Assembly: GCF_000477435.1 (NCBI RefSeq)
Contig: NC_022576.1
Location: 868,001-932,000 of the forward strand
Source: Candidatus Symbiobacter mobilis CR
GTDB taxonomy: Bacteria > Pseudomonadota > Gammaproteobacteria > Burkholderiales > Burkholderiaceae_C
DNA length: 64,000 bases
Direction: 5' to 3'
The stretch's first letter is position 1. Each line of letters opens with the position of its first letter. This document shows, piece by piece, positions 7,991 through 30,545 of this stretch. The position numbers and the translations under genes are program-made. Below the pieces are notes generated by a model that worked only from the letters and a program-made list of their open reading frames with translations, was not told the DNA's origin and ran no database searches.

Positions 7991-8001
7991 TGGAGGCCAC
8001 G

Positions 8002-12344: not shown

Positions 12345-12680
12345 ATGGGCACCAAGCTAAAAAATAAATACATTATAGCCTATGACATTTGTGACCCGAA
12401 AAGATATAACAAAATTCATAAAATTATCAAAAAATATGGACTTCCGCTACAGTATTCCGTTTATTTGCTAGATGTAACAAGATTAGAAATAGAAAAATTA
12501 GTTACAGAGTTACGCTCCCTGATAGACCCTGAGAAAGACGATATTCGCGGCTACTATATACCGCAGAATACGTGGAAAGTCAGCATGGGAACAAGTATCG
12601 TGCCGAATGACGTTCTGCCTGGCTTATGGAAAGACCAGACCACAGCAGAACAAGATGACCAGTATGCTTTATTCACGTAA
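12345..12680 (+). CDS. cas2: second Cas2, A+T-rich copy
   Basis: A 111-residue Cas2 with Asp14 in YIIAYDICDPKRYNKIHK. YSVYLLDVTRLEIEKLV follows, then DPEKDDIRGYYIP. The base composition is far more A+T-rich than cas1 and the first cas2, and the protein is not close to the first copy, so it is not a recent duplicate. An AGGAG-like site precedes the ATG. It lies 74 bases after cas1. It probably arrived with the A+T-rich block that includes the next gene and the CRISPR leader. Confidence 0.87.
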   Translation: MGTKLKNKYIIAYDICDPKRYNKIHKIIKKYGLPLQYSVYLLDVTRLEIEKLVTELRSLIDPEKDDIRGYYIPQNTWKVSMGTSIVPNDVLPGLWKDQTTAEQDDQYALFT

Positions 12681-12853: not shown

Positions 12854-12892
12854 AGCTTGATATCTATTACCCATAAAATCATTGAAGATACA

Positions 12893-14538: not shown

Positions 14539-15714
14539 GTCTAAAGACATGCCCTGATCTCAAAGGGATTAAGACCCACTAGTGCGTTCCACCAGTCGAG
14601 GCACTCAACGTCTAAAGACATGCCCTGATCTCAAAGGGATTAAGACTTCCACAACTGCCCAAGCATACGGAACATCGTAGTCTAAAGACATGCCCTGATC
14701 TCAAAGGGATTAAGACTTGCGCGTTGTTACGTGTAACCAATGCCATGATGGTCTAAAGACATGCCCTGATCTCAAAGGGATTAAGACGTCCCCTCCTTCA
14801 TCCACGCTACTTACGCGCACAGTCTAAAGACATGCCCTGATCTCAAAGGGATTAAGACACCCACGCCGCAATCTCATCGTCACTTTTGCTCAGTCTAAAG
14901 ACATGCCCTGATCTCAAAGGGATTAAGACTTATTCAGGATCTGTTGATGCATCGCATTACCGTCTAAAGACATGCCCTGATCTCAAAGGGATTAAGACGA
15001 CAACGTCATGGCGACGTTTATTGGGGGGTACGTCTAAAGACATGCCCTGATCTCAAAGGGATTAAGACAAACAATACATTACAGGGACTGACGCCTACCT
15101 GGGTCTAAAGACATGCCCTGATCTCAAAGGGATTAAGACCCTGATCAGGGAAGGACCGTACTGGTACGCTACGTCTAAAGACATGCCCTGATCTCAAAGG
15201 GATTAAGACCTTTGTAGATCAGCGCATTCTTTGCGCCGCTACGGTCTAAAGACATGCCCTGATCTCAAAGGGATTAAGACAATATAAAGTCTACTTGTAA
15301 TGCTTAAATCTTGTCTAAAGACATGCCCTGATCTCAAAGGGATTAAGACCTTCCACAATTGACCAAGCATCCTAAACATAGTAGGTCTAAAGACATGCCC
15401 TGATCTCAAAGGGATTAAGACAGTTTATCTTTACCAAAATGGTTAGCTAAATCAGTCTAAAGACATGCCCTGATCTCAAAGGGATTAAGACTTATTCAGG
15501 ACGTGTGCATGGAGCGCATTGCGTCTAAAGACATGCCCTGATCTCAAAGGGATTAAGACAGAAACTTAATTACAGGGTATTTAATACTCTTAGTCTAAAG
15601 ACATGCCCTGATCTCAAAGGGATTAAGACTTTACTCTCCCACCAAGTCTTCTTTCTATATTCGTCTAAAGACATGCCCTGATCTCAAAGGGATTAAGACC
15701 CACCGGATAGATTA
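14539..15714 (+). CRISPR. CRISPR array, leader-side part: 17 repeats, spacers 1-16 and the left part of spacer 17
   Basis: The repeat is 37 bp, starting GTCTAAAGACATGCCCTGAT and ending AAGGGATTAAGAC; GTCT/AGAC ends and an inner CCCT/AGGG pair can form stems. Repeats start at 14539, 14610, 14680, 14751, 14822, 14893, 14962, 15032, 15103, 15173, 15244, 15313, 15385, 15455, 15523, 15593 and 15663, all identical. Spacers are 31-35 bases. Spacer 17 is cut after 15 bases by the insertion sequence. Spacers 2 and 12, and 6 and 14, are diverged copies of the same target sites. The last eight bases of the repeat, ATTAAGAC, would be the crRNA 5' handle. Confidence 0.98.
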
Positions 15715-16624
15715 GAGCCTATTTCAGTAGGCAATATGCCCTTAAAGTGATTAGGGCGCAAGTGAGGTGCAACATGGCGATATACGTTTCAGGAAGTTTT
15801 TCCCAACGCACCAGAATTCGGCGAAAGCGATTCATCCAGCTATGTGTACGTTCTACTACCCAGCGCCGTGCCTTGAAACCAGCTTCTTGCTTTATAGATT
15901 TAGCTTCTTCGCCTCTGGAACGAATGTGAGCCGTAAAGCCAAATTCTTTGACGATCTCTCTTACTTCATCAAAATCGTATCCTTTGTCCAAGCAGATGCC
16001 TTGTGGTTTTGTATCCGTCGGGTCTGGTCGTTTTGCTTTGATGTCTTCCAGCGTACTCCTGACCAACTTCATGTCGTGCCGATTCGCACCGTCGATGGCG
16101 ACGGCAAGCGGTATGCCTGCACCATCAGTAAGCACACTGCGCTTGACACCTTGCTTGCCTCGATCTGTTGGGTTGGCCCCAGTTGTTTGCTGACCTGCTA
16201 GGGGCGCTTTGGTTAACGCTCCATCCATGGATGTCCATGCCCAATCGATGCCTTGGGATTTGTCGTATTCGACCAATTGTTGTATCCAAAGGGCTGAAAA
16301 TACACCTGCTTTCGTCCATTCGCGAAAGCGTCGATAGGCAGAACTGCACGAGCAAATTCCCGTCATGTTTAAGGCGTTCCACTGGCAGCCAGTTCGCAAT
16401 ACGAAAAGAATTGCGTTCATTGCGCTGCGATCAGATACACGCGGATTATGGCAACCAAGGGGATGTTTTTTGGGTTCAGGGAGCGATGATTTTATTATTC
16501 CCCAGAGTGCATCATGCAATCTCCACCCATCATCATGAAATATCAGGCCCATAATTTTCCTCATCTGGGTTATTGCGACTGTGATGATTAATATTATATA
16601 TCATTAGCCTACTGAAATAGGCTC
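15715..16624 (-). mobile_element. IS5-family insertion sequence (IS427-like) inside spacer 17
   Basis: A 910-bp element with perfect 18-bp inverted ends, starting GAGCCTATTT at 15715 and ending AAATAGGCTC at 16624, flanked by a TA duplication (15713-15714 and 16625-16626). The two spacer pieces, 15 and 19 bases counting one TA, add up to 34, the normal spacer length, so the insertion is exact. One intact transposase lies on the minus strand. Confidence 0.93.
15719..16552 (-). CDS. IS5-family DDE transposase
   Basis: A transposase of 277 residues, full length in a single frame. The N terminus has LPEPKKHPLGCHNPRVSDR and FVLRTGCQWNAL, typical of the DUF4096-type head of IS5 proteins. The DDE residues appear in WTSMDGALTK (Asp), CLDKGYDFDEV (Asp) and RRWVVERTHSWMNRFRRI (Glu). 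The second of two nearby ATGs, at 16552, is chosen because AGGA lies directly upstream; the other is at 16564. The stop codon lies within the left inverted repeat. The frame and ends are undamaged, so the element is probably young. Confidence 0.93.
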   Translation of the reverse strand: MGLIFHDDGWRLHDALWGIIKSSLPEPKKHPLGCHNPRVSDRSAMNAILFVLRTGCQWNALNMTGICSCSSAYRRFREWTKAGVFSALWIQQLVEYDKSQGIDWAWTSMDGALTKAPLAGQQTTGANPTDRGKQGVKRSVLTDGAGIPLAVAIDGANRHDMKLVRSTLEDIKAKRPDPTDTKPQGICLDKGYDFDEVREIVKEFGFTAHIRSRGEEAKSIKQEAGFKARRWVVERTHSWMNRFRRILVRWEKLPETYIAMLHLTCALITLRAYCLLK

Positions 16625-16626
16625 TA

Positions 16627-17590
16627 ATCCGGCATATCCTCTTCTGTCTAAAGACATGCCCTGATCTCAAAGGGATTAAGACAGAGACCAACTCTTCTGT
16701 CTTATTCATAAAAAAGTCTAAAGACATGCCCTGATCTCAAAGGGATTAAGACGGTAGCTTCAGCAGCTACCACACCCGCTCCCGCAGTCTAAAGACATGC
16801 CCTGATCTCAAAGGGATTAAGACCCCCTTTTCAGGAAGTGTATCGAAATCTGGTTCAGTCTAAAGACATGCCCTGATCTCAAAGGGATTAAGACATCTAA
16901 ACCAGTAAGATAACCAGTAGGAATACCGTCTAAAGACATGCCCTGATCTCAAAGGGATTAAGACATACTCTACCCACTTAGCGGTGTCTCCGCCAGCGTC
17001 TAAAGACATGCCCTGATCTCAAAGGGATTAAGACCCATCTGCCCGTTCAAATTGGGCCTGAGATTGAGGTCTAAAGACATGCCCTGATCTCAAAGGGATT
17101 AAGACTCTTCCAATGCATAGAAAAATGAGGCCATTACGTCTAAAGACATGCCCTGATCTCAAAGGGATTAAGACATTTTTGGCTTACCTAGCCTTCGCCA
17201 CTCTTTGTCTAAAGACATGCCCTGATCTCAAAGGGATTAAGACGTAGCGATATTTCGTTATTGAGCTTTGGCTGGGTCTAAAGACATGCCCTGATCTCAA
17301 AGGGATTAAGACTCCTCTTTAACTTGAGTAGGATAATCAGAGCGTCTAAAGACATGCCCTGATCTCAAAGGGATTAAGACTTCCAAAGATCTCTCATGAG
17401 ATCCTCCTTCGGAGTCTAAAGACATGCCCTGATCTCAAAGGGATTAAGACCATGCCAAAGGCACAGTCCGCCGACGAGCTTGAGTCTAAAGACATGCCCT
17501 GATCTCAAAGGGATTAAGACACTACTAGACCGACATCCTCCAGCGCGTAGAAGGTCTAAAGACATGCCCTGATCTCAAAGGGATTAAGAA
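16627..17590 (+). CRISPR. CRISPR array, trailer-side part: 14 repeats, rest of spacer 17 and spacers 18-30
   Basis: This continues the same array after the insertion sequence. Repeats start at 16646, 16716, 16787, 16858, 16928, 16998, 17069, 17138, 17207, 17276, 17344, 17414, 17484 and 17554. All but the last are identical to the leader-side repeats. The last (17554-17590) ends AAGAA instead of AAGAC, as usual at the old end of an array. Spacers 24 and 30 share a target site. Spacer 28 covers a ribosome-binding site and start codon in antisense. Spacer 19 contains GGTAGCT and AGCTACC, which could fold back in the crRNA. Confidence 0.98.
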
Positions 17591-17733: not shown

Positions 17734-17743
17734 GCAAGCTTGC
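17734..17743. promoter_or_regulatory. palindromic element GCAAGCTTGC, copy 3
   Basis: The palindrome is followed by CATTCCCCCC and lies 41 bases before the second NE0113-family start, in the same arrangement as copy 1. Confidence 0.45.
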
Positions 17744-17784
17744 CATTCCCCCCATCCCGCAAAACCGCACCGACACTGCTCCCC

Positions 17785-18927
17785 ATGAACTCCTACGACC
17801 CCCACCAACCCGCCGGCTATCCGCGCCGTGTTTTGATCGCCGTCAGCGGCTTGTCCCCGCAGATCGTCACCGAGACGATTTACGCCCTGGCCGCCGACCA
17901 GGACGAGGCTTTCGTTCCTACTGAAGTCCATCTGCTGACCACCGCCACCGGCGCGCAGCGTGCAGAGCTTTCGCTGCTCAGTGAAGACCTGGGCTGGTTC
18001 CACAAGTTGCAGGCCGACTTCCATCTGCCCGGTATCGCTTTCGACCGCAGCCATATCCATGTGATGCGCGATGCCCAGGGCAAGCCATTGGGCGATATCC
18101 GCACTCCGGCGGACAACCAGGCCGCTGCCGACTTCATCACCGCGCAGGTTCGCGCTTTCACTGCCGACGACGCTTGCGCTCTGCACGCTTCCATCGCAGG
18201 CGGGCGCAAGACGATGGGGTTTTATCTGGGCTACGCCTTGTCGCTCTATGGCCGTGCGCAGGATCGGCTGAGCCACGTCCTCGTCAGCGAGCCGTTCGAA
18301 TCGAGTTACGACTTTTTCTACCCCACGCCCTATAGCCGTGTTTTGAGGCTGCTCAATAACCAGTTGGCCGACAGCGTAAACGCCCAGGTCACGCTGGCGA
18401 ATATCCCTTTCGTCAGCCTGCGCCATGGGCTGCCATCCGCGTTGTTGGCAGGCACGGCCAGCTTCAATGACACCGTCGAGGCCGCCATTGCCGCATTGGC
18501 CCCACCCCGGCTGCGGCTGCATTTGCGCGGCCAATACATCGTCGCAGGCACAACCCGCATTGCGCTACCGCCTGCGGAACTGGCGCTGCTGGCCGTTTTT
18601 GCGCGCCGTGCGGAAATGGGCAAAGAACCCCTGCCCGCACCCGCAAAGGGTGTTCCAGACAAAGACTGGGCAACGATCTACCTGCGCGAATACCGCCGCA
18701 TCACCGGCAACGATGCCGAAAACCAAGACCCCACGCACCGCGCATTGCGCAAAGGTATGGACGGTGAGTACTTCAGCATCCACAAATCGAGGCTGCACAA
18801 AACACTCAAGAACACATTGGGGCCGAGCGCCAATGCCTATCTGATCGCCGACGGCGGCACCCGCCCCCGCCTTTACCAATTGGCATTGAATGCGGATGCG
18901 ATTGCATTTGAGGAAACAGTGGTGTAG
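17785..18927 (+). CDS. CRISPR-associated CARF protein, NE0113 family, copy 2
   Basis: A 380-residue protein nearly identical to copy 1 at 384 over residues 1-190 (CARF domain, loop ASIAGGRKTMGF). It is more diverged in a short stretch near 190-200 (RLLNNQLADSVN here) and in the C-terminal winged-helix-like part (SIHKSRLHKTLKNTLG). The pattern of identical and diverged blocks suggests duplication with gene conversion or recombination. It stands directly behind the CRISPR array and is followed by an A+T-rich block, so it is probably transcribed on its own. As with copy 1, the role is probably cOA binding or degradation; the activity cannot be read from sequence. Confidence 0.8.
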   Translation: MNSYDPHQPAGYPRRVLIAVSGLSPQIVTETIYALAADQDEAFVPTEVHLLTTATGAQRAELSLLSEDLGWFHKLQADFHLPGIAFDRSHIHVMRDAQGKPLGDIRTPADNQAAADFITAQVRAFTADDACALHASIAGGRKTMGFYLGYALSLYGRAQDRLSHVLVSEPFESSYDFFYPTPYSRVLRLLNNQLADSVNAQVTLANIPFVSLRHGLPSALLAGTASFNDTVEAAIAALAPPRLRLHLRGQYIVAGTTRIALPPAELALLAVFARRAEMGKEPLPAPAKGVPDKDWATIYLREYRRITGNDAENQDPTHRALRKGMDGEYFSIHKSRLHKTLKNTLGPSANAYLIADGGTRPRLYQLALNADAIAFEETVV

Positions 18928-19120: not shown

Positions 19121-20848
19121 ATGGCAAATACTTATTTGATTGTTACGTATTCAGAAAAAGATGCCGCCAAAGCGCTTGGCGCAAAATGGGACAGTGTGCA
19201 AAGATCATGGTATGTACCTGAAGGCCGTGAACTGGCTCCATTTTCGCAATGGCTACCCAAAGATGGGGTTGCGACCAAAGCAACAATACAAAATAATGCA
19301 GTAGAGAATCGGGATCATAGTGAGCTGGCAGCCCCTGCCACGCGGGGTATATCTCTTTCTGCATTATTGGGAGGAGTTTCTACAATCGTTTCACGTGCTT
19401 ACCAAACTGGCGTGTGGGTCATGGTGGAAGTGGAAGAGTTGTATACAGTCAGTGGTCACATTTATCTTGGTGTTTCGGAACGGGACCACAACGGTGGTGT
19501 ATTAGCCAAGTCCCAAGCTGTAATCTGGCAACGTACTGCACAAACAATCCTGCCAAAATTTCAGAGCGACACGGGAATCCAGTTTGCACCTGGAATGAAG
19601 ATTCTGGTTCGCGGACGGCCAATATATCATCAACGCTATGGCTTTACTATCACTATTGATAATATTGACTCAGAATATACGCTAGGTGAACTAGCAGCCA
19701 AAAAGAGGAAAATCCGTGAACGCCTGAAAACAGAGGGTGTTTTTACTGCAAATAAGCAACTTCCTTATCCATGGGATTTCAATGTAGTCTTGGTTATTGC
19801 TCCTGCTGGTGGCGCAGGTTTGGGCGACTTCCAAGCAGAAGCAGAACGACTCGAACAATTCGGTATTTGCCATTTTGACTATATTTATAGCCGGTTTCAA
19901 GGCGAAGGTGCTGCCAGAGAAATTTGTGATAAATTGCAAAAGGCAATGTCGATTTATATTAGTCAAAATAACACATTGCCCGATGCTGTTGTAATTATTC
20001 GTGGCGGTGGCCCGGTCAACGACATCGCATGGCTCAATGACTATGACTTGGCTAGATATATTTGCGATTTGCCAGTACCAGCTTTGACAGGGATTGGCCA
20101 TGAACGTGACAGTACAGTGCTGGATGAAGTAGCAAACTGTAAGTACGATACTCCTTCTAAAGTTATTGCAGGCATCGAACAGACTATTAAACAAAGAACC
20201 TCGGATGCAAAAATCATATTTGAACAACTTATCAATACTGGAATAAGATACATACAAGAATCAAAGTTAAATACGACACTCTTGGATACTGAAGTCCGTA
20301 GAAATGCAATGCAGCAACTTACCCAAGGTCGTAAAACTACTTTGGCGTTGATCAACGAAATGAAACTGAATGCATTGAATGAAATCCGTATTGCTTCAGA
20401 TCTTTCTGCTGGTGCCCTGCAGTTTATAAAAACAGAAGCAAAAGTCCATGTACAGCAAGCAAAACAATCTGTGCCTACCCTCTGGAATCAAATCGTCAAT
20501 GATGCCAACCATAGCCTGAAAGCAGCATCGGCTTCGACTTTTATGATGGCTACTACCGTGCTGGACAACGCACGTATCGAAGCTGCCATTGCCAGAAACG
20601 TCACAAAAGATTCCATGGAAATAATTGGTACTTCGGCAAAACAAATCGTGCAATCTGCAAAAAATGACAGCAAGGCATTGATGCGGGAAATAGTTGGCCA
20701 AGGGCCAGAAAAAACGCTGAAACGTGGATTTGCAATTATTCGTAATCAGGAAGGCAAACCAATAACCCGGGCGGCACAGACTGTGACTGGATCTACAATC
20801 GAAATTCAATTTATTGATGCAAACGTTTCAGCAAATATTGACCAATAA
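19121..20848 (+). CDS. exonuclease VII large-subunit-like protein with DUF5710-like head
   Basis: A 575-residue XseA-like protein. Residues 3-45 (YLIVTYSEKDAAKALGAKWD, then WYVPEG) match the DUF5710 type, a small domain often attached to mobile-element DNA enzymes. The OB-fold region is near 80-180. The catalytic core has VIIRGGGPVNDIAWLND, LARYICDLPVPALTGIGHE and DSTVLDEVANCKYDTPS, the conserved XseA pattern including the GxGHExD motif. A long helical tail follows. The gene is A+T-rich and unlike a core xseA. An XseB-like gene follows after 18 bases. ExoVII cuts single-stranded DNA from both ends; its presence in a CRISPR island suggests defence or mobile-element processing, by inference only. 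Confidence 0.83.
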   Translation: MANTYLIVTYSEKDAAKALGAKWDSVQRSWYVPEGRELAPFSQWLPKDGVATKATIQNNAVENRDHSELAAPATRGISLSALLGGVSTIVSRAYQTGVWVMVEVEELYTVSGHIYLGVSERDHNGGVLAKSQAVIWQRTAQTILPKFQSDTGIQFAPGMKILVRGRPIYHQRYGFTITIDNIDSEYTLGELAAKKRKIRERLKTEGVFTANKQLPYPWDFNVVLVIAPAGGAGLGDFQAEAERLEQFGICHFDYIYSRFQGEGAAREICDKLQKAMSIYISQNNTLPDAVVIIRGGGPVNDIAWLNDYDLARYICDLPVPALTGIGHERDSTVLDEVANCKYDTPSKVIAGIEQTIKQRTSDAKIIFEQLINTGIRYIQESKLNTTLLDTEVRRNAMQQLTQGRKTTLALINEMKLNALNEIRIASDLSAGALQFIKTEAKVHVQQAKQSVPTLWNQIVNDANHSLKAASASTFMMATTVLDNARIEAAIARNVTKDSMEIIGTSAKQIVQSAKNDSKALMREIVGQGPEKTLKRGFAIIRNQEGKPITRAAQTVTGSTIEIQFIDANVSANIDQ

Positions 20849-20866
20849 TTATAAGGATTTTATATT

Positions 20867-21202
20867 ATGAACGCGACATTCAAAGCAGCATATAAAACAC
20901 TAAAAACTAATGCAGATACCTTGCGCAAACAGCATGAACCGAATATCGACGACTTGTTGCAGATCGTCACTGAATCTGTTGCAGCATACAAAATTTGCCA
21001 GGAACGGATCAACGCTGTTGAAAAAGCTTTGGAAAAAGCTTTGCATGATGCAGACACACCAACAAGTGAAGCACCCAAGGGAGAACAGGTTGCCCAGCAT
21101 TCTTCGCCACCCAAGCAGGACGAAAAAATTGATGACGATATAGACGAAGACGATATAGACGAAGAAACAGATTATTCCTACGATAAAGATGTACCATTTT
21201 AG
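20867..21202 (+). CDS. exonuclease VII small-subunit-like protein with SSB-like acidic tail
   Basis: A protein of 111 residues. Residues 1-62 are helical, with VAAYKICQERINAVEKALEKAL resembling the helix that XseB uses to bind XseA. Residues 63-111 form a disordered, very acidic tail (DDDIDEDDIDEE) that ends in YDKDVPF. That end resembles the SSB C-terminal tip (acidic run, then Asp-x-Pro-Phe), which recruits repair and replication proteins. XseB proteins are usually about 80 residues and lack such a tail. It is co-directional with the XseA-like gene, 18 bases behind it, and A+T-rich. It could link the nuclease to SSB partners; this is inference. Confidence 0.68.
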   Translation: MNATFKAAYKTLKTNADTLRKQHEPNIDDLLQIVTESVAAYKICQERINAVEKALEKALHDADTPTSEAPKGEQVAQHSSPPKQDEKIDDDIDEDDIDEETDYSYDKDVPF

Positions 21203-21713: not shown

Positions 21714-22037
21714 CATGGAAGACTTTTTCCGAAATTGGCCCAACAATGCACCCATGCCAACGCAATACCCAATTTCCGATGCAGCAAGCACACCATCAGT
21801 CGCGCACCATCATGCAAAGCCAATCGAGAACATCGAAAGTATCCAGACCAATGCGCTATATGTAGGCACGTGCATAATTTCTCACCATCCAACCCGGTTG
21901 GGAATAACATTGCGGCTAATGGTCCATGCCTGTTAAGAAAAATTTTTAACCTACATTGCGCAGATTGAAAAGCATATAGTTTATTGCGTTACCATCTCAA
22001 CCAAGTATCGTCTCCACAAATAACTTTTTCAAGAAAA

Positions 22038-23132
22038 ATGAACACTGTAATGAAAAATTCAATCAATGCACACAGGTCTTTTTCTGGCAAAGAGGAGGCC
22101 CCTCTCCATTTGCTAGTTGAACGCGAAAAGAAACTGCATCAACTGCACGTTGAGTTACCAGTCAGGATAAAATTATTAAACAATGGATCATTGATACAAA
22201 TTACTTACAACAACATTGTTTTGCTGGGTGCTGTGTGCCGCCAATTGATACATCAAATTGGCAGCAGAGCATGGGGGTATAGCCTGGATTATCAGAAAAT
22301 AAGCAAAAATTGGTCGGAAAAATTTTCTAGCAACTGTATTGCTCTAGAGCAAGAACTGGAATCGGTTTTTGATCGTTTCGATCTAACCATTCGTTACGAA
22401 AAAGACAGAATTGGAAATAACAAAATATACGGAATTGTCTCTCCAAATTTTGTCAATGTGAATCAGATTGATTTTCGCGAACAGTTTTTGTCCAAAATCA
22501 AGAAATCTACTTATTTGACCCCTATCAGCAATGGAATGAAATTTGATCGTTACAATAGGGTAATAGAAACCTTTGACTTCAATAATCCAGATTATCAGAC
22601 TTCATACAGCTATGGATTGGTATATGCAAAAAATAATGGCTACGAATCATACAAAGTAAATTGGGAAAGAACAATCCTCATTTGCACAAATGGTCTTACT
22701 GCAATTGAATCCAATGAATCTATTTGGAAGCACACCAAAGATATTGATTTGCATGACTTCATTACCCAAACCGTTCAAGTCGGAATTATCAATCAAAAAC
22801 ATATTGAAGAAAGAATAGAATTATCCCAAAATTCTTTACTTCACAGAAGCACCTTTGACGAGTTGATGAGGAGATTGTCTTTATCCAATGCATCGAAAAA
22901 CCGTATCCAAAGCCGTCTTGCCATAGAATCTAATGCCGTGGGCAACAATCAGTGGGCTTTAAGCCAATCTTTAACTTGGCTCGGCACACATGAAAAAGCT
23001 ATACCTATTAGAAACCAAGAGCAATTAACAAGATTGGGTACTGATATTCTAGAAAGTTCACTGGAACATGTATTAGAACAACCGCCTCAAATAATGCGTG
23101 ATCAATCATACGGATTGGTTATGCCTAAATAA
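22038..23132 (+). CDS. DUF932-like protein of unknown function
   Basis: A 364-residue, A+T-rich gene. YSYGLVYAKNNGYESYKVNWERTILICTNGL is split over residues 190-225, and AVGNNQWALSQSLTWLGTH lies near the end; both resemble the phage/plasmid DUF932 family, whose function is unknown. No nuclease or ATPase motif is seen. The ATG at 22038 is preferred over a TTG-initiated longer form from 21984; an ATG at 22050 is also possible. It forms, with the next gene and the ExoVII pair, an A+T-rich block unlike the flanking cas genes, pointing to transfer from a mobile element. Confidence 0.5.
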   Translation: MNTVMKNSINAHRSFSGKEEAPLHLLVEREKKLHQLHVELPVRIKLLNNGSLIQITYNNIVLLGAVCRQLIHQIGSRAWGYSLDYQKISKNWSEKFSSNCIALEQELESVFDRFDLTIRYEKDRIGNNKIYGIVSPNFVNVNQIDFREQFLSKIKKSTYLTPISNGMKFDRYNRVIETFDFNNPDYQTSYSYGLVYAKNNGYESYKVNWERTILICTNGLTAIESNESIWKHTKDIDLHDFITQTVQVGIINQKHIEERIELSQNSLLHRSTFDELMRRLSLSNASKNRIQSRLAIESNAVGNNQWALSQSLTWLGTHEKAIPIRNQEQLTRLGTDILESSLEHVLEQPPQIMRDQSYGLVMPK

Positions 23133-23186: not shown

Positions 23187-23849
23187 ATGTTCAGAGAGAT
23201 TTGTTTGGTGTGCCCCAATGATAAACACTACAGAAAATGGCTGAAAGATAATAATTTTATTTCTGACCCAAAACGAATACCCTGCCCTTTTGCGCACGAA
23301 TACCATCTTCAATTATACAAATTGGAGAATATTATTCGATCGATCATCAAACTCCATCTCGAAGAATGCCCAAATCGCATTCTTCAATGGAATAATAGAA
23401 ATAAATATGGTCGATACAGGATACACTATCGTGAATTAGACTATGTTTATGCGCCAGATCAAACACCTAGATTATTTATAGAAATCAAACATAGAGAAAC
23501 CACGACCACAGGCAAAGACGGTATCGCCCAGATCAAAAAATCGTTATTTATTGCGCAACATGCATGGCAAAATGTTTCCGGTGTTTGCATCAATGTCATG
23601 ATGGCTGATATATTAGGTATTGAAACAGATATTATTCCTGATTTTATTCCTCTGACTGAGATTCCGACTGTTCTGGCATCTGAATCTCAACCGCACGATG
23701 AGATTCATGTATTATGGCTAGACTCTAAGGAAGTGGCGACTTTTGCGATTGAGCATGGATTATTGACAAAAGAAGAAGTGGACGATTTACCTAGATTGCA
23801 CAAATTGGCAAGGAACCCCACGAAGTATCTCAACACGGAATTTGAGTAG
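23187..23849 (+). CDS. putative PD-(D/E)XK nuclease-fold protein
   Basis: A protein of 220 residues without a recognised family. Asp85 in YRELDYVYAP, then Glu99 and Lys101 in LFIEIKHRET, fit the D-x(n)-E-x-K pattern of PD-(D/E)XK nucleases. The conserved-looking GIAQIKKSLFIAQHAW helix follows. The N terminus has CLVCPNDKHYRKWL and PCPF, with three cysteines that might bind metal. A+T-rich, 54 bases behind the DUF932-like gene. It may act with it or with the ExoVII pair. Activity is an inference from three residues and their spacing. Confidence 0.45.
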   Translation: MFREICLVCPNDKHYRKWLKDNNFISDPKRIPCPFAHEYHLQLYKLENIIRSIIKLHLEECPNRILQWNNRNKYGRYRIHYRELDYVYAPDQTPRLFIEIKHRETTTTGKDGIAQIKKSLFIAQHAWQNVSGVCINVMMADILGIETDIIPDFIPLTEIPTVLASESQPHDEIHVLWLDSKEVATFAIEHGLLTKEEVDDLPRLHKLARNPTKYLNTEFE

Positions 23850-24042
23850 CGTTATTTTTTTGCAATACAGGCTGTATAAACGCCCGACGCTACCCCAACC
23901 CTAGAACGATAGCCAATACATCAAATCCAAGGAGGCCACACAAAAAGTCATTGATTAGATGGACAATGCATAAGGTCGGTTCGCGTTTGCAATACCAACG
24001 CGCCGTACGTCAGCAACCTTTTTCACATACTGAAGGTTTTTT

Positions 24043-25251
24043 ATGCCGAAATACGCCACCCATCTGTGCCTGGTTTCCGACCAAGCCACCCCAAACCTGT
24101 TGCCGGTTCTCGACCCTACATGGCAGCCCCGCAAAGTGGTGCTGGCCCGTAGCAAACAGATGGTCGACCGCGCTGAGGCGCTGGCCAAGGTGCTACGCCC
24201 CCGGTGCCACGGGATAGAAATTGCCATGCGCGATTTGCCCGATGCCTACGACTACGCGGCGTTGTCTGACAACTTTTTGGACTTTCTGGCAGGTTGCGAG
24301 GGCGAGGACGTTGCGCTGAACGTCACCGGCGGTACCAAGCTGATGGCCGTTGCCGCGCAGGAAGTCTTTCGTTCCGAAGGCAAACCGGTGTTCTATGTCA
24401 ACGTCCAAACCGACGAGGTGATCGTTATCGGCCAAAGCGCACGCTGGCAGCCTTTGGTCAGCAAGCTGACGGTGCGCGAGATGCTCGAAGTGCATGGCCA
24501 CACAGTCAGCCCCATTCGGCAAATCCAAGTCACCGCGCCGCAGCGCGATGTAACGGCCAGGCTGCTGGACCATCTTCAAAGTGCTGCGGAGGCTTTTGGA
24601 ACGCTCAATTACCTTGCACAGCTCGCCGAAGGCAAGCCGGGGCTTACCACGCAGATTGACAAGAAGAATTCAAAATGGAAAGCGTTGCAAGCATTGCTGT
24701 TTTTGTTGGAAGACGCGCAAATGTTGCGGCTGGATGGAGACAAGCTGACCTTTGCCGACGAAGAAGCCCGCCGCTTTGTGCAAGGCGAATGGCTGGAAAA
24801 GCACGTCTACCAGACGCTGCAAGGCCTGCAAGGCAAATACGCTTCGATCAGCGATGTGGTGACGGGGGTCGAGCTGGAATTCGACCAGCGCTCCCGCCGC
24901 ACGGGCAAGCCATTGACCCGCAACGAAATCGATGTGGCCTGCCTGTACCACAACACCTTGCATTTGATTGAATGCAAAACGGCCAACTACGCCAAAGAGC
25001 CAGGCGACCAGGACGACAAAGCCGCAACGGTGCTCTACAAGCTGGAATCGCTGCAAAAGCTGGGCGGCTTGCGCACCAAAACGATGATCGTCGACCTGCG
25101 CGGCCATCTGGCCGACCAGGACGCGAACCGCAACCGCGCCGAAGAATCCAATATCCTGATTGTTCACGGCAGGGAATTGCACGACCTGCGCAATGTGCTG
25201 GAGCGGAAATGGTTCTCGAAAGGGGGGGAGGGAAAGGGAACCCATGCCTGA
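24043..25251 (+). CDS. card1: Card1/Can2-type cOA-activated nuclease (CARF + PD-(D/E)XK), copy A
   Basis: A 402-residue protein of the DUF1887 type. Residues 1-135 form the CARF domain with the ligand loop LNVTGGTKLM (92-101). Residues 160-235 look like a helical/winged linker. The nuclease domain is near 245-380, with Glu249 (GEWLEKHVY), Asp297 (NEIDVACLYH) and Glu310-Cys-Lys312 (LHLIECKTANY). Characterised relatives are switched on by cyclic tetra-adenylate and cut or nick nucleic acids non-specifically, causing dormancy of the infected cell. All active-site residues are present. It overlaps the start of a truncated cad1 by eight bases. Copy B at 26913 is very similar; the two seem to come from a tandem duplication. 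Confidence 0.9.
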   Translation: MPKYATHLCLVSDQATPNLLPVLDPTWQPRKVVLARSKQMVDRAEALAKVLRPRCHGIEIAMRDLPDAYDYAALSDNFLDFLAGCEGEDVALNVTGGTKLMAVAAQEVFRSEGKPVFYVNVQTDEVIVIGQSARWQPLVSKLTVREMLEVHGHTVSPIRQIQVTAPQRDVTARLLDHLQSAAEAFGTLNYLAQLAEGKPGLTTQIDKKNSKWKALQALLFLLEDAQMLRLDGDKLTFADEEARRFVQGEWLEKHVYQTLQGLQGKYASISDVVTGVELEFDQRSRRTGKPLTRNEIDVACLYHNTLHLIECKTANYAKEPGDQDDKAATVLYKLESLQKLGGLRTKTMIVDLRGHLADQDANRNRAEESNILIVHGRELHDLRNVLERKWFSKGGEGKGTHA

Positions 25252-25390
25252 TCGGAACATCCTGCTTTGCACCCTCTGCGCAAGCTGGGCCGTCATTCCC
25301 GAAGTGTTCGGGTGGCTGGCCCCTGCGATGTTGGATTTGTACGCCCAGCATCCGGCCAATGTGTCCAAGACATGCCCCAAATATGGATGA
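25244..25390 (+). pseudogene. truncated 5' fragment of cad1
   Basis: The first 38 codons match the intact cad1 at 28108 almost exactly (one Ala/Thr change). Matching sequence stops at 25359, after which unrelated sequence adds ten codons and a stop. The CARF ligand loop and the whole deaminase domain are missing. The eight-base overlap with the upstream Card1-type gene is the same as in the intact pair, so the two genes were duplicated together before this copy was cut. Confidence 0.9.
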
Positions 25391-25453
25391 AGCCCACCCT
25401 TGCCAAGCCCGCATTGCGTTACTTCGCACGATGGGGCGTAGCAGCACTGAAAT

Positions 25454-25884
25454 GCGTATTCCGGCAACGTGACCGGCGATTCCGGCGAACGTCACCGGAT
25501 AGTCAGTGTTGCGCGTTTTGCGTTGATGCCGAGCTGTTTTTTCGGCTCAATCTCCCTTTCTGGTTTGGAATTTCTTCATTCATAGGCCCCTGCCAACCCC
25601 ACGTATTTGGTGACTGCCCCTTTGGAAATGCCTAGAGCATGGGCAATTTGTTGGTGGGACTTTCCACCTTCGAATTGGAGACGCAAGGCATCTTTGAGTT
25701 TGCGCATAGTGATCCGTAAAGCAGGCATCGGTAGCTCCTTGCAAAAATGCTCGAAGCTACCTGACCCGTAGGCTTCGTTGTGCGCAACACCGCTCCGTCG
25801 GCCTATACCGCCGTGCCGACTGCCATGACCGCTCGTATCGGTCACGTTCGCCGGAATCACCGGTTACGCTGGACCGGAATACTC
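25454..25884. mobile_element. decayed IS21-derived element
   Basis: The ends are imperfect inverted repeats of about 40 bases: the left carries ATTCCGGCAACGTGACCGG and GGCGAACGTCACCGGA, and the right carries the reverse arrangement (CGGTCACGTTCGCCGGAAT, then CTGGACCGGAATAC). Repeated blocks of this type are typical of IS21 ends. Only a short piece of the IstA transposase remains inside, so the element cannot move by itself. Confidence 0.6.
25576..25728 (-). pseudogene. IstA (IS21 transposase) N-terminal fragment
   Basis: Fifty residues, MRKLKDALRLQFEGGKSHQQ followed by IAHALGISKGAVTKYVGLA, match the N-terminal helix-turn-helix of IS21-family transposases. The catalytic domain and IstB are absent. 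The minus-strand frame remains open further upstream to 25860, but that part is the element end and not a protein I recognise. Confidence 0.7.
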
Positions 25885-25950
25885 AGCGAGGCTGCACCGG
25901 CGAGCGTACACCCCGGATTCCGCTTCACTCCATCCGGGCTACGGGGTGGG

Positions 25951-26010
25951 CTGGGAGCGAGGGGTGTCTCGCCCTCGGGTATTTCGAGGGCAAGATGCCC
26001 TCGCTCCCAG
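25951..26010. repeat. large REP/BIME-like hairpin
   Basis: CTGGGAGCGAGGG (25951-25963) pairs with CCCTCGCTCCCAG (25998-26010), and inside these GCCCTCG pairs with CGAGGGC around a 7-base loop. This makes a long two-part stem in the gap before the DUF4160 gene. It could be a chromosomal repeat of the REP type or act as a terminator-like barrier. The rest of 25391-26105 holds only the IS21 scar. Confidence 0.75.
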
Positions 26011-26105
26011 CGGTACCACATGACTTTGCATCGCACCCGCAGCCACTCGCCACACATCTTGAGCAGGTAAACTGACAACATTAGCTATATCACGAGGAAT
26101 ACAAC

Positions 26106-26372
26106 GTGCCAATCATTTCTATGTTCTACGGCATCATCATCCGCCTGTACTTGATCGACAACCAGCACCACAACCTGCCTCACATTCATGCCAGATACGC
26201 TGAATTCGAGGCATCAATTGGCCTTGGCGACGGTGAAATTCTTGCAGGTGAATTGCCCCGCAAGCAGTTGCGTCTGGTACAGGCTTGGATAGAACTTCAT
26301 CGTGACGAACTAATGGCAAACTGGGAACTCGCCGTCAGTGGAGAGAATCCCTACAAAATCGAACCACTTTGA
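26106..26372 (+). CDS. DUF4160 protein, probable toxin-antitoxin partner
   Basis: An 88-residue DUF4160 protein, with FYGIIIRLYLIDNQHHNLPH and IHARYAEFEASI, then LPRKQLRLVQAWIELHRDELMANWE. Family members are small proteins usually paired with DUF2442, and the pair is widely regarded as a toxin-antitoxin-like module. The GTG at 26106 is chosen because GAGGA lies seven bases before it; an ATG five codons later is possible. The next gene starts ten bases after its stop. The pair lies between the two Card1-type copies and has split what was once a tandem duplication. Confidence 0.8.
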   Translation: MPIISMFYGIIIRLYLIDNQHHNLPHIHARYAEFEASIGLGDGEILAGELPRKQLRLVQAWIELHRDELMANWELAVSGENPYKIEPL

Positions 26373-26382
26373 GGAACCCGCC

Positions 26383-26655
26383 ATGTATTGGGATGTTAAA
26401 ACCGTTAAACCGCTGCCGGACTTCCGTATTTATTTCGAAATTGAGGACGGCCGTAAGGGTATTTTCGACTTGAAACCCTTTCTCGACCATGGTGTATTTC
26501 GAGAGCTTCGGGACGTGCATTATTTCAATCGGGTAGGCATTCTGTTTGGTGCAGTAACTTGGCCAAACGAACAGGACATCGCCCCGGAAACCCTGCTGTC
26601 TGGAATGACCCCTGTGGAATCAACAGCGTCTAATCGGGTAGGCAACGGCTGCTAA
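26383..26655 (+). CDS. DUF2442 protein, partner of DUF4160
   Basis: A protein of 90 residues. MYWDVKTVKPLPDFRIYFEI, GIFDLKPFLDHGVFRELRD and GAVTWPNEQDIAPETL form the DUF2442 pattern. The ATG at 26383 has a GAGGA site. The C-terminal end after the family core (SGMTPVESTASNRVGNGC) looks like read-through into intergenic sequence and may be altered. Probably the second half of the small module begun by DUF4160; which of the two is the toxin is not clear from sequence. Confidence 0.78.
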   Translation: MYWDVKTVKPLPDFRIYFEIEDGRKGIFDLKPFLDHGVFRELRDVHYFNRVGILFGAVTWPNEQDIAPETLLSGMTPVESTASNRVGNGC

Positions 26656-26835
26656 CCGTCGCCTACCACACCACCCACCGTGCGGGGCCGGAGTAAGAGC
26701 CTCGTATTCATGATTCAAGAAGATACAAGGCTCTAAGAATGCAGGGATACCAGTGAACCAGCGGAAGCTGTAAGCAATGGATTCTTCACGCTGGGCAGAA
26801 ATGCCAGATCGCGCCAAATTGCGGCATTGGACTGG

Positions 26836-26855
26836 ATTCCCGCTTTCGCGGGAAT
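26836..26855. repeat. short chromosomal palindrome (ATTCCCGC...GCGGGAAT)
   Basis: Two 8-base arms around TTTC form a hairpin of a type common in intergenic regions of many proteobacteria. It lies in the 257-base gap before copy B of the Card1-type gene. The rest of that gap shows no gene. Confidence 0.75.
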
Positions 26856-26912
26856 GACGGATCAATCGAACCGTCTATCGTCGTTTTTTCTTTTTTCCAA
26901 GGAGATGTCCCC

Positions 26913-28115
26913 ATGCCCCAATACGCCACCCATCTGTGCCTGGTTTCGGCCCAACCCACCCCGAATCTGCTTCCGGTTCTCGACCCCGCATGGCAGCCCC
27001 GCAAAGTAGTGCTGGCCTGTAGCAAAGAGATGGTCGACCGCGCTGAGGCGCTGGCCAAGGTACTCCGCCCCCGGTGCCACGGGATCGAAATTGCCATGCG
27101 CGATTTGCCCGATGCCTACGACTACGCGGCGTTGTCTGACAACTTTTTGGACTTTCTGGCAGGTTGCGAGGGCGAGGACGTTGCGCTGAACGTCACCGGC
27201 GGTACCAAGCTGATGGCCGTTGCCGCGCAGGAAGCCTTTCGATCCGAAGGCAAGCCGGTGTTCTATGTCAACGTCCAAACCGACGAGGTGATCGTTATCG
27301 GCCAAAGCGCACGCTGGCAGCCTTTGGTCAGCAAGCTGACGGTGCGCGAGATGCTCGAAGTGCATGGCCATACCGTCAGCCCCATTCGGCACATCCAAAT
27401 TACTGCGGCCCAGCGCGATGTCACAGCCAGGCTGGTGGACCATGCGTACACCGATGCGGAGGCATTTAGCACGCTCAACCACCTTGCGCAGTCTGCCGAA
27501 GACAAGCCCGGGCTTGCCACCCAGATCGACCCCAAAGCATTGCAAGCATTGCAGGCGTTGCTGTTCTTGTTGGAAGACGCGCAAATGTTGCGGCTGGATG
27601 GAGACAAGCTGACCTTTGCCGACGAGGAAGCCCGCCGCTTTGTGCAAGGCGAATGGCTGGAAAAGCACGTCTACCAGACACTGAAAGACCTGCAAGGCAA
27701 ATACGCTTCGATCAGCGATGTGGTGACGGGGGTCGAGCTGGAATTCGACCAGCGCTCCCGCCGCACGGGCAAGCCGTTGACCCGCAACGAAATCGATGTG
27801 GCCTGCCTGTACCACAACACCTTGCATTTGATCGAATGCAAAACGGCCAGCTACGCCAAAGACCCAGGCGGCCAAGACGACAAAGCCGCAACGGTGCTCT
27901 ACAAGCTGGAAACGCTGCAAGAGCTGGGCGGCTTGCGCACCCAAACGATGATCGTCGATCTGCGCGGCCATCTGGCCGACCACCCCGCGCACCGTAGCCG
28001 TGCCGAAGAATCCAATATCCTGATTGTTCGCGGCAGGGAACTGCGCGACCTGCGCAATGTGCTGGAGCGGAAATGGTTCTCGAAAGGGAGGGAGGGAAAG
28101 GGAACCCATGCCTGA
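26913..28115 (+). CDS. card1: Card1/Can2-type cOA-activated nuclease, copy B
   Basis: A 400-residue second copy of the CARF-PD-(D/E)XK nuclease, with the same CARF loop (LNVTGGTKLM) and active site (NEIDVACLYH...LIECK). It differs from copy A mainly at residues 170-215, where copy B has LVDHAYTDAEAFSTLNHLAQ and lacks two residues. The similarity begins at the start codon, while the upstream bases differ, so each copy has its own promoter and ribosome site (here AAGGAGATG before the ATG). Its stop overlaps the intact cad1 by eight bases, so the nuclease and deaminase are made together. Intact motifs in both copies suggest both work, perhaps with different ligand thresholds. Confidence 0.9.
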   Translation: MPQYATHLCLVSAQPTPNLLPVLDPAWQPRKVVLACSKEMVDRAEALAKVLRPRCHGIEIAMRDLPDAYDYAALSDNFLDFLAGCEGEDVALNVTGGTKLMAVAAQEAFRSEGKPVFYVNVQTDEVIVIGQSARWQPLVSKLTVREMLEVHGHTVSPIRHIQITAAQRDVTARLVDHAYTDAEAFSTLNHLAQSAEDKPGLATQIDPKALQALQALLFLLEDAQMLRLDGDKLTFADEEARRFVQGEWLEKHVYQTLKDLQGKYASISDVVTGVELEFDQRSRRTGKPLTRNEIDVACLYHNTLHLIECKTASYAKDPGGQDDKAATVLYKLETLQELGGLRTQTMIVDLRGHLADHPAHRSRAEESNILIVRGRELRDLRNVLERKWFSKGREGKGTHA

Positions 28116-30252
28116 TCGGAACATCCTGCTTTGCGCCCTCTGCGCAAGCTGGGCCGTCATTCCCGAAGTGTTCGGGTGGCTGGCCCCTGCGATGTTGGAT
28201 TTGTACGCCCAGCATCCGGCCAAACAGTCTTTGGATGCCATTCGTTCGCGCTACGGGCTGGCTGCGCCATCCGAGCTATGGATCTGCACCACGCAGGGCG
28301 CGCAAACCCTGGCCAGTTTGGATCGCCTGCGCGCCTGGTGGGAAGGGCTGGGGCGGCCTTGCCCTTTGCGGATTTGGTGTGCGCAGGGCACCGACCAATT
28401 GGCCACCCAGCGCGAGTGCGACCACATTCGTGAATTGACGTTCCGCGTCACCCTGCTTGCCAGCCATCAATGCGGCAGGCAGGGGCAATTGCTGCTTTCC
28501 CTAGCCGGTGGGCGCAAGACGATGAGCGCGGATTTGCAGACGGCGGGTTCGCTGTTCGGCGCGCACGCATGGCTGCATGTGGTGGGGCCGGAACCGATGC
28601 CCGCTGCGTTGATGGCCAGAACCGAGGCCGAACGGCAAGCGCAAATCAACCTGTTCCAACACCCTTTGCCGCCGGAGCTGGCTGCGGCGATCACCCCCCT
28701 GGTTGCAGGAACGGGCACCCGCAATGAGCTGCTCGATATCGAGATCGACGGGCTGCGGGTGGACGACCGGAGTTTTTCCGTTCCCCTGCCGGATTCGGGC
28801 GCGGAATGCGCTTGGCCGTTGCCGCAAACCGGCCCCTTGTTGCAGGATGAATTGCAGCGCCGCCTGCACGAAAGCAGCCGGTTGATGGGCAACTTTCTGG
28901 CGCATCTGGCGGAATCCGAGCACCACGAAAACTGGCGCAGTCTGTACCGTCTGCCGCCTGCGCAGATTCAGATGCTCCGCAGTACGGTGTTGACCGCAGC
29001 GCATTTGCCTGCGCTACATGCCCTACCCAAGGCGGATTTGCACCGGCATTTGGGCGGGTGCCTGGGCATGGATGCGCAACGGGTGGTGGCGCAGGCCATT
29101 CTGGCGACGTATTCCGAAACAGACCGCACCCGCTTCCTCCATCGCGTTGCGCCGTGGCTTTCCGCAGCAGAGTGGCCGTGGAATTGGCCCCAGTCGCTGG
29201 AAGCGCATGGGCGCGACCGCCCTGCCCTATCCGCCACCTTGTTGTTGCACGCCAGCCCCGCGCAGTTGCAGCACAACCTGTACGCCGTGACGGAACCCCG
29301 CGTTGCCCTGCGCGCATCCTCCCAGGGCTTTGCGGCGTATGAGCGGCCGGGGGAACTCAGCGGTTCCGCCCTGTTGGCGCACCCTGCCGCGCTGGCGCCG
29401 TATGCGCAATCCATCGTGGAACAGGCGCGTAGGGAAGGGTTGGCGTACCTGGAATTGCGCGGCACCCCGCAGCGCTACCGCCCGCAAGACCCCACCGGGT
29501 TTCTGCGCGATTTGTGTACGGCCCTGGAACGGGCCGGTGCCCGCGTTCGGCCCGTTGCCGACCCTGCCGCGACGGCCTGGCCCCGGGTGGGGTTCGTTTG
29601 GATTCTGAACCGCCGCCACAGCGACCATGCCCAGGTGGTGCAGCAGGCCGTGCAGGCCCACCGGGAACTGGGGCACTTTCTGCTGGGGCTGGATTTGGCG
29701 GGGGACGAAGGTACGCGCTGCCCGGAAGCCCTGGCCCCAGCCTTTCAGCCCGCTTTTGCGGAGTGCCTGCCGGTGACGATCCACGCTGGGGAAGGCGAAC
29801 CCGCCGACAACATCTGGCAGGCCGCCTACCACTTGCACGCCGACCGCATCGGCCACGGGCTGACGTTGACGCACAACCCCGCGCTGATGGCGCGGTTCCG
29901 CGACCGCAGCATCTGCCTGGAACTGTGCCCCAGCTCCAACCGCGAAGTGGTGGGGTACCGCGACCCCGATCACCCTGCCACCGCCGGCCAACCCGACTAC
30001 CCCTTGCGGGAATTCATCCAGGCCGGCCTGCCCGTGGCCTTGTGTACGGACAACCCTGCGATTTCCCGCACTTCCCTACCCGAGGAATACCTGGCCGCAA
30101 GCCGGATGACCCCCCAAGGCTTGACCGTATGGGAAGCGCTGGCTCTGACCCGCCAAGCCTTCGTCCACGCCTTTTTGCCCAGCGCGGAACGCGAAGTGCT
30201 GCTCAAACGGATGGATGCGCAGATTTTTGAGTGGGCGGGGACACTGGGCTGA
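28108..30252 (+). CDS. cad1: Cad1-type CARF-adenosine deaminase fusion
   Basis: A 714-residue protein. Residues 1-175 form a CARF domain with the ligand loop LSLAGGRKTMSAD (130-142). A helical linker spans about 180-300. The C-terminal part is an adenosine deaminase: zinc motif LHRHLGG (His312, His314), VTIHAGEGE (His559, Glu562), DRIGHGLTL (His583) and ALCTDNPAIS (Asp648). Characterised Cad1 proteins respond to cyclic oligoadenylates from Cas10 and convert ATP to ITP, stopping growth of infected cells. All deaminase signatures are present. It follows the Card1-type copy B by an eight-base overlap. A strongly damaged copy lies at 25244. The substrate here is inferred from the family. Confidence 0.88.
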   Translation: MPDRNILLCALCASWAVIPEVFGWLAPAMLDLYAQHPAKQSLDAIRSRYGLAAPSELWICTTQGAQTLASLDRLRAWWEGLGRPCPLRIWCAQGTDQLATQRECDHIRELTFRVTLLASHQCGRQGQLLLSLAGGRKTMSADLQTAGSLFGAHAWLHVVGPEPMPAALMARTEAERQAQINLFQHPLPPELAAAITPLVAGTGTRNELLDIEIDGLRVDDRSFSVPLPDSGAECAWPLPQTGPLLQDELQRRLHESSRLMGNFLAHLAESEHHENWRSLYRLPPAQIQMLRSTVLTAAHLPALHALPKADLHRHLGGCLGMDAQRVVAQAILATYSETDRTRFLHRVAPWLSAAEWPWNWPQSLEAHGRDRPALSATLLLHASPAQLQHNLYAVTEPRVALRASSQGFAAYERPGELSGSALLAHPAALAPYAQSIVEQARREGLAYLELRGTPQRYRPQDPTGFLRDLCTALERAGARVRPVADPAATAWPRVGFVWILNRRHSDHAQVVQQAVQAHRELGHFLLGLDLAGDEGTRCPEALAPAFQPAFAECLPVTIHAGEGEPADNIWQAAYHLHADRIGHGLTLTHNPALMARFRDRSICLELCPSSNREVVGYRDPDHPATAGQPDYPLREFIQAGLPVALCTDNPAISRTSLPEEYLAASRMTPQGLTVWEALALTRQAFVHAFLPSAEREVLLKRMDAQIFEWAGTLG

Positions 30253-30267
30253 CTGCCGGGTGCGATC

Positions 30268-30285
30268 CCCTACTCGAATAGGCTC
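30268..30285. repeat. solo sequence resembling the IS5-family element end
   Basis: This matches the 18-bp inverted end of the insertion sequence in the array at 15 of 18 positions (ACT..AATAGGCTC) and is likewise followed by TAA. No second end is near. It may be a leftover of an old insertion at the island edge. Confidence 0.4.
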
Positions 30286-30320
30286 TAATTCGATTGACAA
30301 AACCTGAAAGGAGAGCAGAA

Positions 30321-30545
30321 ATGCAAGTGCAGCGCGTGTTGAGCCGTGTCGACAATGGGCCTCTTGTCATTCCGCTTCCGGAAAGCTTCCATCACCATCG
30401 GGTGGAAGTTATCGTCCTGACACTGGAAGAGAATGAACCAGAGCCGATACAGCGCCAGCCTCACCCCGATATCGCAGGACAGGTCAAGATTCACAGTGAT
30501 ATCTTGACTTCAGCCCCGGAACAGGATTGGGATTTGTCACGATGA
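30321..30545 (+). CDS. VapB-like antitoxin
   Basis: Seventy-four residues. MQVQRVLSRVDNGPLVIPLP followed by ESFHHHRVEVIVLTLEE is the short DNA-binding beta-rich head seen in small antitoxins of this kind, and an acidic/proline-rich tail (ENEPEPIQRQPHPDI) should wrap the toxin. The ATG at 30321 has an AGGAGAG site. The toxin start overlaps its stop (ATGA). It should repress the pair. Identification rests mainly on the partner gene. Confidence 0.7.
   Translation: MQVQRVLSRVDNGPLVIPLPESFHHHRVEVIVLTLEENEPEPIQRQPHPDIAGQVKIHSDILTSAPEQDWDLSR

Follow-up and report, generated by a model that had tools for sequence, protein, structure and literature searches.

In this study, which was based on a 64,000-nucleotide stretch of the Candidatus Symbiobacter mobilis CR genome (positions 868001–932000 of the single-contig, 2.99 Mb assembly; hereafter the window), we analysed three neighbouring genes for CARF-domain proteins, two encoding Card1-type nucleases and one encoding a Cad1-type deaminase, that lie beside a type III-B clustered regularly interspaced short palindromic repeats (CRISPR) locus. 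The genes card1A (24043–25251, forward strand, 402 amino acids) and card1B (26913–28115, forward strand, 400 amino acids) were both intact. Their products were assigned a CARF domain and a PD-(D/E)XK nuclease by Pfam, PADLOC and motifs, and each scored above the cut-off for Pfam Card1_endonuc and CARF_Card1. The open reading frame (ORF) of cad1, listed as 28024–30252, matched Pfam A_deaminase, weakly Cas_NE0113, and PADLOC CARF_ADA with 694 bits. Its likely start is the ATG at 28108, which gives a 714-amino-acid protein (28108–30252, forward strand) with a CARF and an adenosine-deaminase domain, a probable adenosine triphosphate (ATP) deaminase. As the card1B stop falls at 28115, the two genes share eight nucleotides, ATGCCTGA (28108–28115, forward strand), and this overlap, reported in an initial annotation made from the letters alone, proved to be real. 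The purine-rich stretch GAAAGGGAGGGAGGGAAAGGGAA at the card1B end (28082–28104, forward strand) is a possible ribosome-binding site for cad1. Because the genes overlap, Card1B and Cad1 are probably synthesized jointly and at a fixed ratio, which would involve coupled translation.

The coupling of nuclease and deaminase is not confined to this genome: Cad1 and Card1 are paired repeatedly elsewhere, for the most part in the reverse order. A protein search returned at least 645 Cad1 homologues at E ≤ 1e-10 (8000 candidates scored), and the 120 that were listed were at least 60% identical to the query. A scan of a genome collection with two peptide patterns gave 104 Cad1 loci. The counts below use the best 80 of these, all from other genomes, a choice that favours conserved relatives. 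Many of the 80 lie on short contigs. A locus was counted as evaluable where it included enough flanking sequence. A Card1 gene was found on the same strand within 1300 nucleotides downstream of cad1 in 26 of the 65 loci with at least 1300 nucleotides there; it lay within 100 nucleotides in 15 and overlapped cad1 in eight. When only 600 nucleotides were required, the respective counts were 28, 17 and 10 of 75. Each overlap measured exactly 4 nucleotides (ATGA), with the starts of cad1, Card1 and Csx1 in the relatives chosen by a script near the profile start. The survey of genomes for card1-cad1 overlaps that the initial annotation had called for thus showed that the overlap recurs, but with cad1 ahead of card1, and the joint translation of nuclease and deaminase, which had been taken as the new part of this locus, loses that standing. 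A same-strand Card1 within 1300 nucleotides upstream was found in none of the 62 loci with at least 1400 nucleotides on that side. Three loci call for comment: in L059, Card1 lies 119 nucleotides upstream of cad1 on the opposite strand and, in L085, 8.6 kb upstream, both outside the counts, while in L092 the nearest downstream match (278 nucleotides) is a partial Card1 and a whole one follows at 682 nucleotides. The cad1-card1 pair was found in betaproteobacteria (among them Rhodoferax and Nitrosomonas) and Methylococcales, and in less similar form in Bacteroidota and Kiritimatiellota. Within the genus to which this genome belongs, Cad1 was present in 10 of 89 genomes, the present one included. 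The open papers that were searched, which did not cover the CARF classification (Makarova et al. 2020), contained no description of a Cad1-Card1 operon.

Other CARF proteins and ring nucleases also occur next to cad1. An apparent arrangement in Methylococcales, in which card1 flanked cad1 on both sides, was discarded as those CARF proteins are Csx1. The upstream proteins of L032, L033 and L083 were identified as CARF-HEPN (Csx1) by PADLOC, and a model derived from these three sequences assigned all seven candidates (upstream in L032, L033, L034, L039, L040 and L083; downstream in L038) to Csx1 rather than Card1. Csx1 was located within 1300 nucleotides upstream of cad1 in 6 of 62 loci, one with a 1-nucleotide overlap, and once downstream with a 4-nucleotide overlap. 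In 9 of 66 loci, the gene for the ring nuclease Csx16 lay no more than 700 nucleotides ahead of cad1, and in some of these a cad1-card1 pair followed it. The corrected table of Csx16 against a downstream effector read 7/18/2/30, and the Fisher p value of 0.065 belongs to the earlier, misassigned classes only. Csx16 was additionally found fused to Card1 in one ORF (L027, 4757–6286) and encoded directly before card1 in two loci from genomes of the present genus (L134, 5489–7184; L135, 705–2306), where no cad1 lay in the fetched stretch. Spread by plasmid or phage was considered and dropped: Cad1 had no match in a plasmid collection (E 1e-20) or in viral contigs, nor did Card1 in phages (E 1e-10).

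The present locus is a rearranged and duplicated variant of this pair, with an unusual Cad1 sensor domain. Over 1317 aligned nucleotides, which run from the card1 ATG into cad1, copies A and B share 92.7% identity, and card1A is followed by a 5' stump of cad1 (25244–25359, forward strand, 116 nucleotides) that differs from cad1 at one position. The frame of the stump ends after 48 codons, and it has the same 8-nucleotide overlap with card1A; therefore, the card1-cad1 overlap predates the duplication. The initial annotation was right that two Card1-type nuclease genes are present, but it had overlooked that they stem from a single duplication and that copy A carries the stump. No cad1 remnant 5' of card1A and no card1 remnant 3' of cad1 were seen by eye, no formal search having been made. 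The ratio of nonsynonymous to synonymous substitution rates (dN/dS) of card1A and card1B was 0.32, as computed with a simple Nei-Gojobori script that was used for all such values, and every motif residue that was checked is kept in both copies, which argues that both nucleases were kept working since the duplication. In the linker (residues 166–225), the synonymous divergence (dS) was 0.66, far above the 0.15 and 0.08 of the two ends, which suggests recombination between the card1 copies or with another allele. The segment between the copies (25360–26912) holds inverted repeats of 33 nucleotides that are 88% complementary (25465–25497 and 25839–25871), an ORF on the reverse strand (25576–25860), a DUF4160 gene (26106–26372) and a DUF2442 gene (26338–26655). 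That ORF gave just weak helix-turn-helix matches in Pfam; an IS21-like origin would be a guess.

The phylogeny bears on how the gene order arose. In the Card1 tree, for which six of the seven reclassified Csx1 (L083 being absent) and a few similar sequences served as the outgroup, card1A and card1B formed a clade (100/100) that grouped, with support 100/99, with eight Card1s from betaproteobacteria; six of these are encoded downstream of a cad1, and the other two are in loci without cad1. In the Cad1 tree, which was built with FastTree and carries local supports, the Cad1 of the window fell inside a betaproteobacterial clade (0.96) whose members with a Card1 have it downstream; two of them, L022 and L057, could not be judged for Card1. 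Its placement beside L017 and L018 within that clade is unsupported (0.03). Since the kin that have both genes carry card1 downstream of cad1, the order card1-then-cad1 looks derived from the reverse. The survival of another card1, followed by a cad1 stump, fits a route by which the cad1-card1 pair would have been duplicated in tandem and the outer genes then lost.

Both proteins retain the residues expected of active effectors. In both Card1 copies, the positions through which Can2 contacts cyclic tetra-adenylate (cA4), S19, T42, K99 and Y118, correspond to S12, S37 (Ser for Thr), K99 and Y118; by contrast, these contacts are not kept in VC1899, a protein that cA4 does not control (Can2 and VC1899 data from PMC7969007). 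The nuclease residues E276 and D278 of Can2 align with E293 and D295 (copy B numbering), and the ECK motif (E308, K310, same numbering) is present in both copies. Card1A and Card1B thus resemble Card1/Can2 in their two Pfam domains, the four cA4-contact positions and the E/D...ECK motif, and differ in being duplicated, in their mosaic linker and in the overlap with cad1. Their predicted activity is nicking of DNA and cleavage of RNA, probably triggered by cA4. The structural model of Cad1 reached a mean predicted local distance difference test score of 85.2 and a predicted template modelling score of 0.62, and its best matches were Cad1 structures. The metal and catalytic residues H243, H448, E451, H472 and D533 of BabCad1, numbered as in the accessible text of PMC11645235, correspond to H312, H559, E562, H583 and D648. 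H314 is also kept, the only listed residue without a named counterpart in TaqCad1 or BabCad1. The zinc and catalytic motifs noted initially were borne out. The ATP-selecting residues Gly264 and Asn549 of TaqCad1 correspond to G316 and N649. For residue 549, PMC12669630 gives Asp in one place and Asn in another; chain 9ebt, which was used in the alignment and has Asn there, was taken as TaqCad1 because its numbering fits, and the N649 column held Asp in 7 of the 79 rows with a letter. The motif-II lysine that binds cyclic oligoadenylates, K106 in TaqCad1 and K104 in BabCad1, is K137 here. On this residue evidence, Cad1 is predicted to turn ATP into inosine triphosphate. Compared with the known Cad1 proteins (BabCad1, TaqCad1 and LngCAAD; 600–635 amino acids, approximately 27% identity over the structural alignment), it is longer, its gene overlaps a nuclease gene, and it departs from them in motif I (A10, C12) and at the position of BabCad1 W349.

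Taken as a whole, the locus is best read, with a probability of about 0.6, as an effector operon in which one signal, probably cA4, acts on two targets. Sensing of phage RNA would lead Cas10 to make a cyclic oligoadenylate, most likely cA4, and the same molecule would open both Card1, as a nuclease, and Cad1, as a deaminase. This idea of one trigger for both, which the initial annotation had put forward, is plausible because Card1 and Cad1 keep the activity residues and the cA4-type signalling residues that they would need, although the ligand is one that we infer. It aligns with the cA4 effectors described by Hoikkala et al. (2024) and Zhu et al. (2021), in which several effectors likewise answer to one cyclic oligoadenylate at one locus; the words "Cad1" and "deaminase" are absent from the main text of the former (PMC11229360), and "deaminase" from the latter (PMC7969007). 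According to PMC11229360, co-occurring effectors usually share one signal and differing signals are very rare. The proposal also draws support from the recurrent gene order and overlap, the two trees and their agreement, the dN/dS of the card1 copies and the occurrence of Csx16, described as a cA4-specific ring nuclease, ahead of cad1 in relatives. As shared-locus cA4 effectors are already known, the question on which the pair bears is how they are balanced: it ties a nuclease type without ring-nuclease activity (Can2) to a deaminase with a cA4-cleaving relative (TaqCad1). The recurrent pair opens a direct way to test how the type III response is dosed and timed.

Several observations, given here together with the alternatives, weigh against this proposal. 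The two genes could be passive neighbours, independent accessory effectors collected in type III islands, with the overlap being the result of genome compaction. Card1 was missing from the region immediately 3' of cad1 in 39 of the 65 evaluable loci. Conversely, a class sample of 369 supplied 15 Card1 loci from genomes other than this one, and in 14 of them the fetched stretch (3 to 15 kb) contained no Cad1 (the sole one with cad1 shares its Card1 sequence with L033), which means that neither protein needs the other. Moreover, 11 of the 28 downstream Card1s lie more than 100 nucleotides away. Two further points weigh against the operon proposal itself: L067, which is near this Cad1 but just outside its clade, has no Card1 in its locus, and co-transcription of card1B and cad1 is presumptive, no promoter-like site having been found in 23800–30400. 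Mere proximity, however, accounts poorly for the exact 4-nucleotide overlap in the 10 loci named above, which include Rhodoferax, Nitrosomonas and several Methylococcales, and for a pairing that recurs in one order. The cad1 and card1 gene trees also agree (Mantel r 0.78 for 28 cad1/card1 pairs, a value that none of 2000 permutations reached), even though this agreement is confounded by species descent. We therefore regard independent neighbours as rather unlikely.

The remaining alternatives concern the Cad1 sensor, whose motif I reads LLCALCASW, with T10A and G12C replaced and S14 kept. Position 12 is Gly in all 118 other listed database homologues with a letter there and in all 77 other genome loci, 2 of the 121 aligned rows being gapped at this position, one of them probably the protein's own, shorter record; at position 10, 117 of the 118 have Thr, and all 77 have Thr or Ser. 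As the cad1 stump carries Thr10 together with Cys12, the change to Cys12 preceded the duplication, whereas that to Ala10 probably came after it. BabCad1 W349, at the hexamer interface, aligns with R467. According to the sections of PMC12669630 available, BabCad1 prefers cyclic hexa-adenylate (cA6), while TaqCad1 and LngCAAD prefer cA4. Card1 could accordingly be driven by cA4 and Cad1 by cA6, a pair that would resist cA4-specific phage ring nucleases; the preference of BabCad1, a motif I unlike that of the compared relatives and the two GGDD Cas10 proteins of the genome, of types III-A and III-B, are in line with this, but the reported rarity of effectors with different signals and the 9 of 66 loci in which cad1 is preceded by Csx16, described as a cA4-specific ring nuclease (PMC12409355), make two channels improbable. 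Cad1 could also be decaying, with the motif-I changes and a long branch as marks of lost ligand sensing and the second copy already gone. Among the 238 columns with a conservation of 97% or more, it departs at 6 (others: mean 1.2, maximum 7), G12C occurs in none of the other compared Cad1s, its branch is 0.46 long as against 0.06–0.36 in the nearest kin, and one cad1 copy is a stump. Yet the 714-amino-acid frame is open, the metal, catalytic and ATP-selecting residues are intact and the model falls in the Cad1 fold, which renders decay quite improbable. The single-signal proposal can, finally, be extended in a way that we consider unlikely in its entirety, namely that Cad1, besides serving as the second weapon, also times the action of Card1. 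The activator would be removed by the Cad1 CARF domain or an adjacent Csx16, and the gene overlap would fix the ratio of nuclease to timer. A Can2-type nuclease is reported not to destroy its activator (PMC7969007), TaqCad1 does cleave cA4, and its motif I is said to account for most of the degradation of cyclic oligoadenylates (both PMC12669630). In the present genome, Csx16 and Crn2 were not found (the search did not extend to Crn1, Crn4, Csx15 and Csx20, and Csx3 could not be judged since no control genome gave a match), a second Card1 was added and the cleavage motif of Cad1 is altered, from which it follows that the brake may be lost and a reversible arrest turned into a one-way response. 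The inverted gene order, the additional nuclease copy and the changed cleavage motif, together with the failure to find Csx16 or Crn2, make the locus a natural experiment.

The source of the signal would lie in the same region. The Cmr operon that had been called complete indeed contains Cmr1, 3, 4, 5 and 6 and Cas10/Cmr2, all of type III-B and on the forward strand: cmr1 (1564–2676), cas10/cmr2 (2679–5741, its start deduced from the HD motif and the cmr1 end), cmr3 (5516–6976, ORF as listed, match from residue 82), cmr4 (7013–7990), cmr5 (7954–8565, ORF as listed, match from about residue 82) and cmr6 (8537–9898). The GGDD motif attributed to this Cas10 was found together with an HD motif. 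Farther along the same strand are cas1 (11299–12270), cas2 (12345–12680) and a CRISPR array (14539–17590; 31 repeats of 37 nucleotides, at most 4 mismatches allowed) that is split by a transposase gene on the reverse strand (15719–16564). Immediately upstream of the window, a type III-A set was located (L137 6977–17749, corresponding to genome positions 856976–867748); it comprises Cas6, Csm2, Csm5 and a Cas10 that carries HD and GGDD motifs. As this second GGDD Cas10 adjoins the window, two cyclases may serve the card1/cad1 effectors. A DDE-transposase-like ORF lies between the type III-A cas10 and csm2, and a gene for a HEC-02-like ATPase follows csm5.

Two NE0113-type CARF proteins are encoded on the forward strand, as noted initially: copy 1 at 339–1538 and copy 2, with 91% amino acid identity to it, at 17740–18927. 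Their genes are 91.8% identical over 1183 nucleotides (dN/dS 0.30), with the homology confined approximately to the gene body, and their divergence is about equal to that of the card1 copies. Copy 2 has an NE0113-type CARF domain and scored above the NCBIfam cut-off for TIGR02584; no solved structure was matched by sequence, and Pfam gave nothing convincing for the C-terminal domain in 13 NE0113 proteins. A ring-nuclease activity is still conceivable, since the CARF portion shows similarity to ring nucleases as well and NCBIfam gives the family that name. In the model of copy 2, fold comparison revealed an OmpR-like winged helix beside the CARF domain, which makes a regulator likelier than the off-switch that had been suggested; the latter is weakly supported given this helix and the prediction by Makarova et al. 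2014 (PMC4012209) that NE0113-type proteins control transcription directly.

Further genes are found around the array. Between cas2 and the array lies a gene (12857–14329) for a DUF7017 and TOTE-type S1/CSD protein (PADLOC PDC-M16B, 645 bits). Between the array and card1A, a gene for an exonuclease VII large subunit with an N-terminal DUF5710 (19121–20848) adjoins a weak match to the small subunit (20867–21202). The ORFs 21984–23132 and 23187–23849 had no match in Pfam, PADLOC or NCBIfam; by eye, the latter contains a D...EIK pattern resembling that of a PD-(D/E)XK nuclease.

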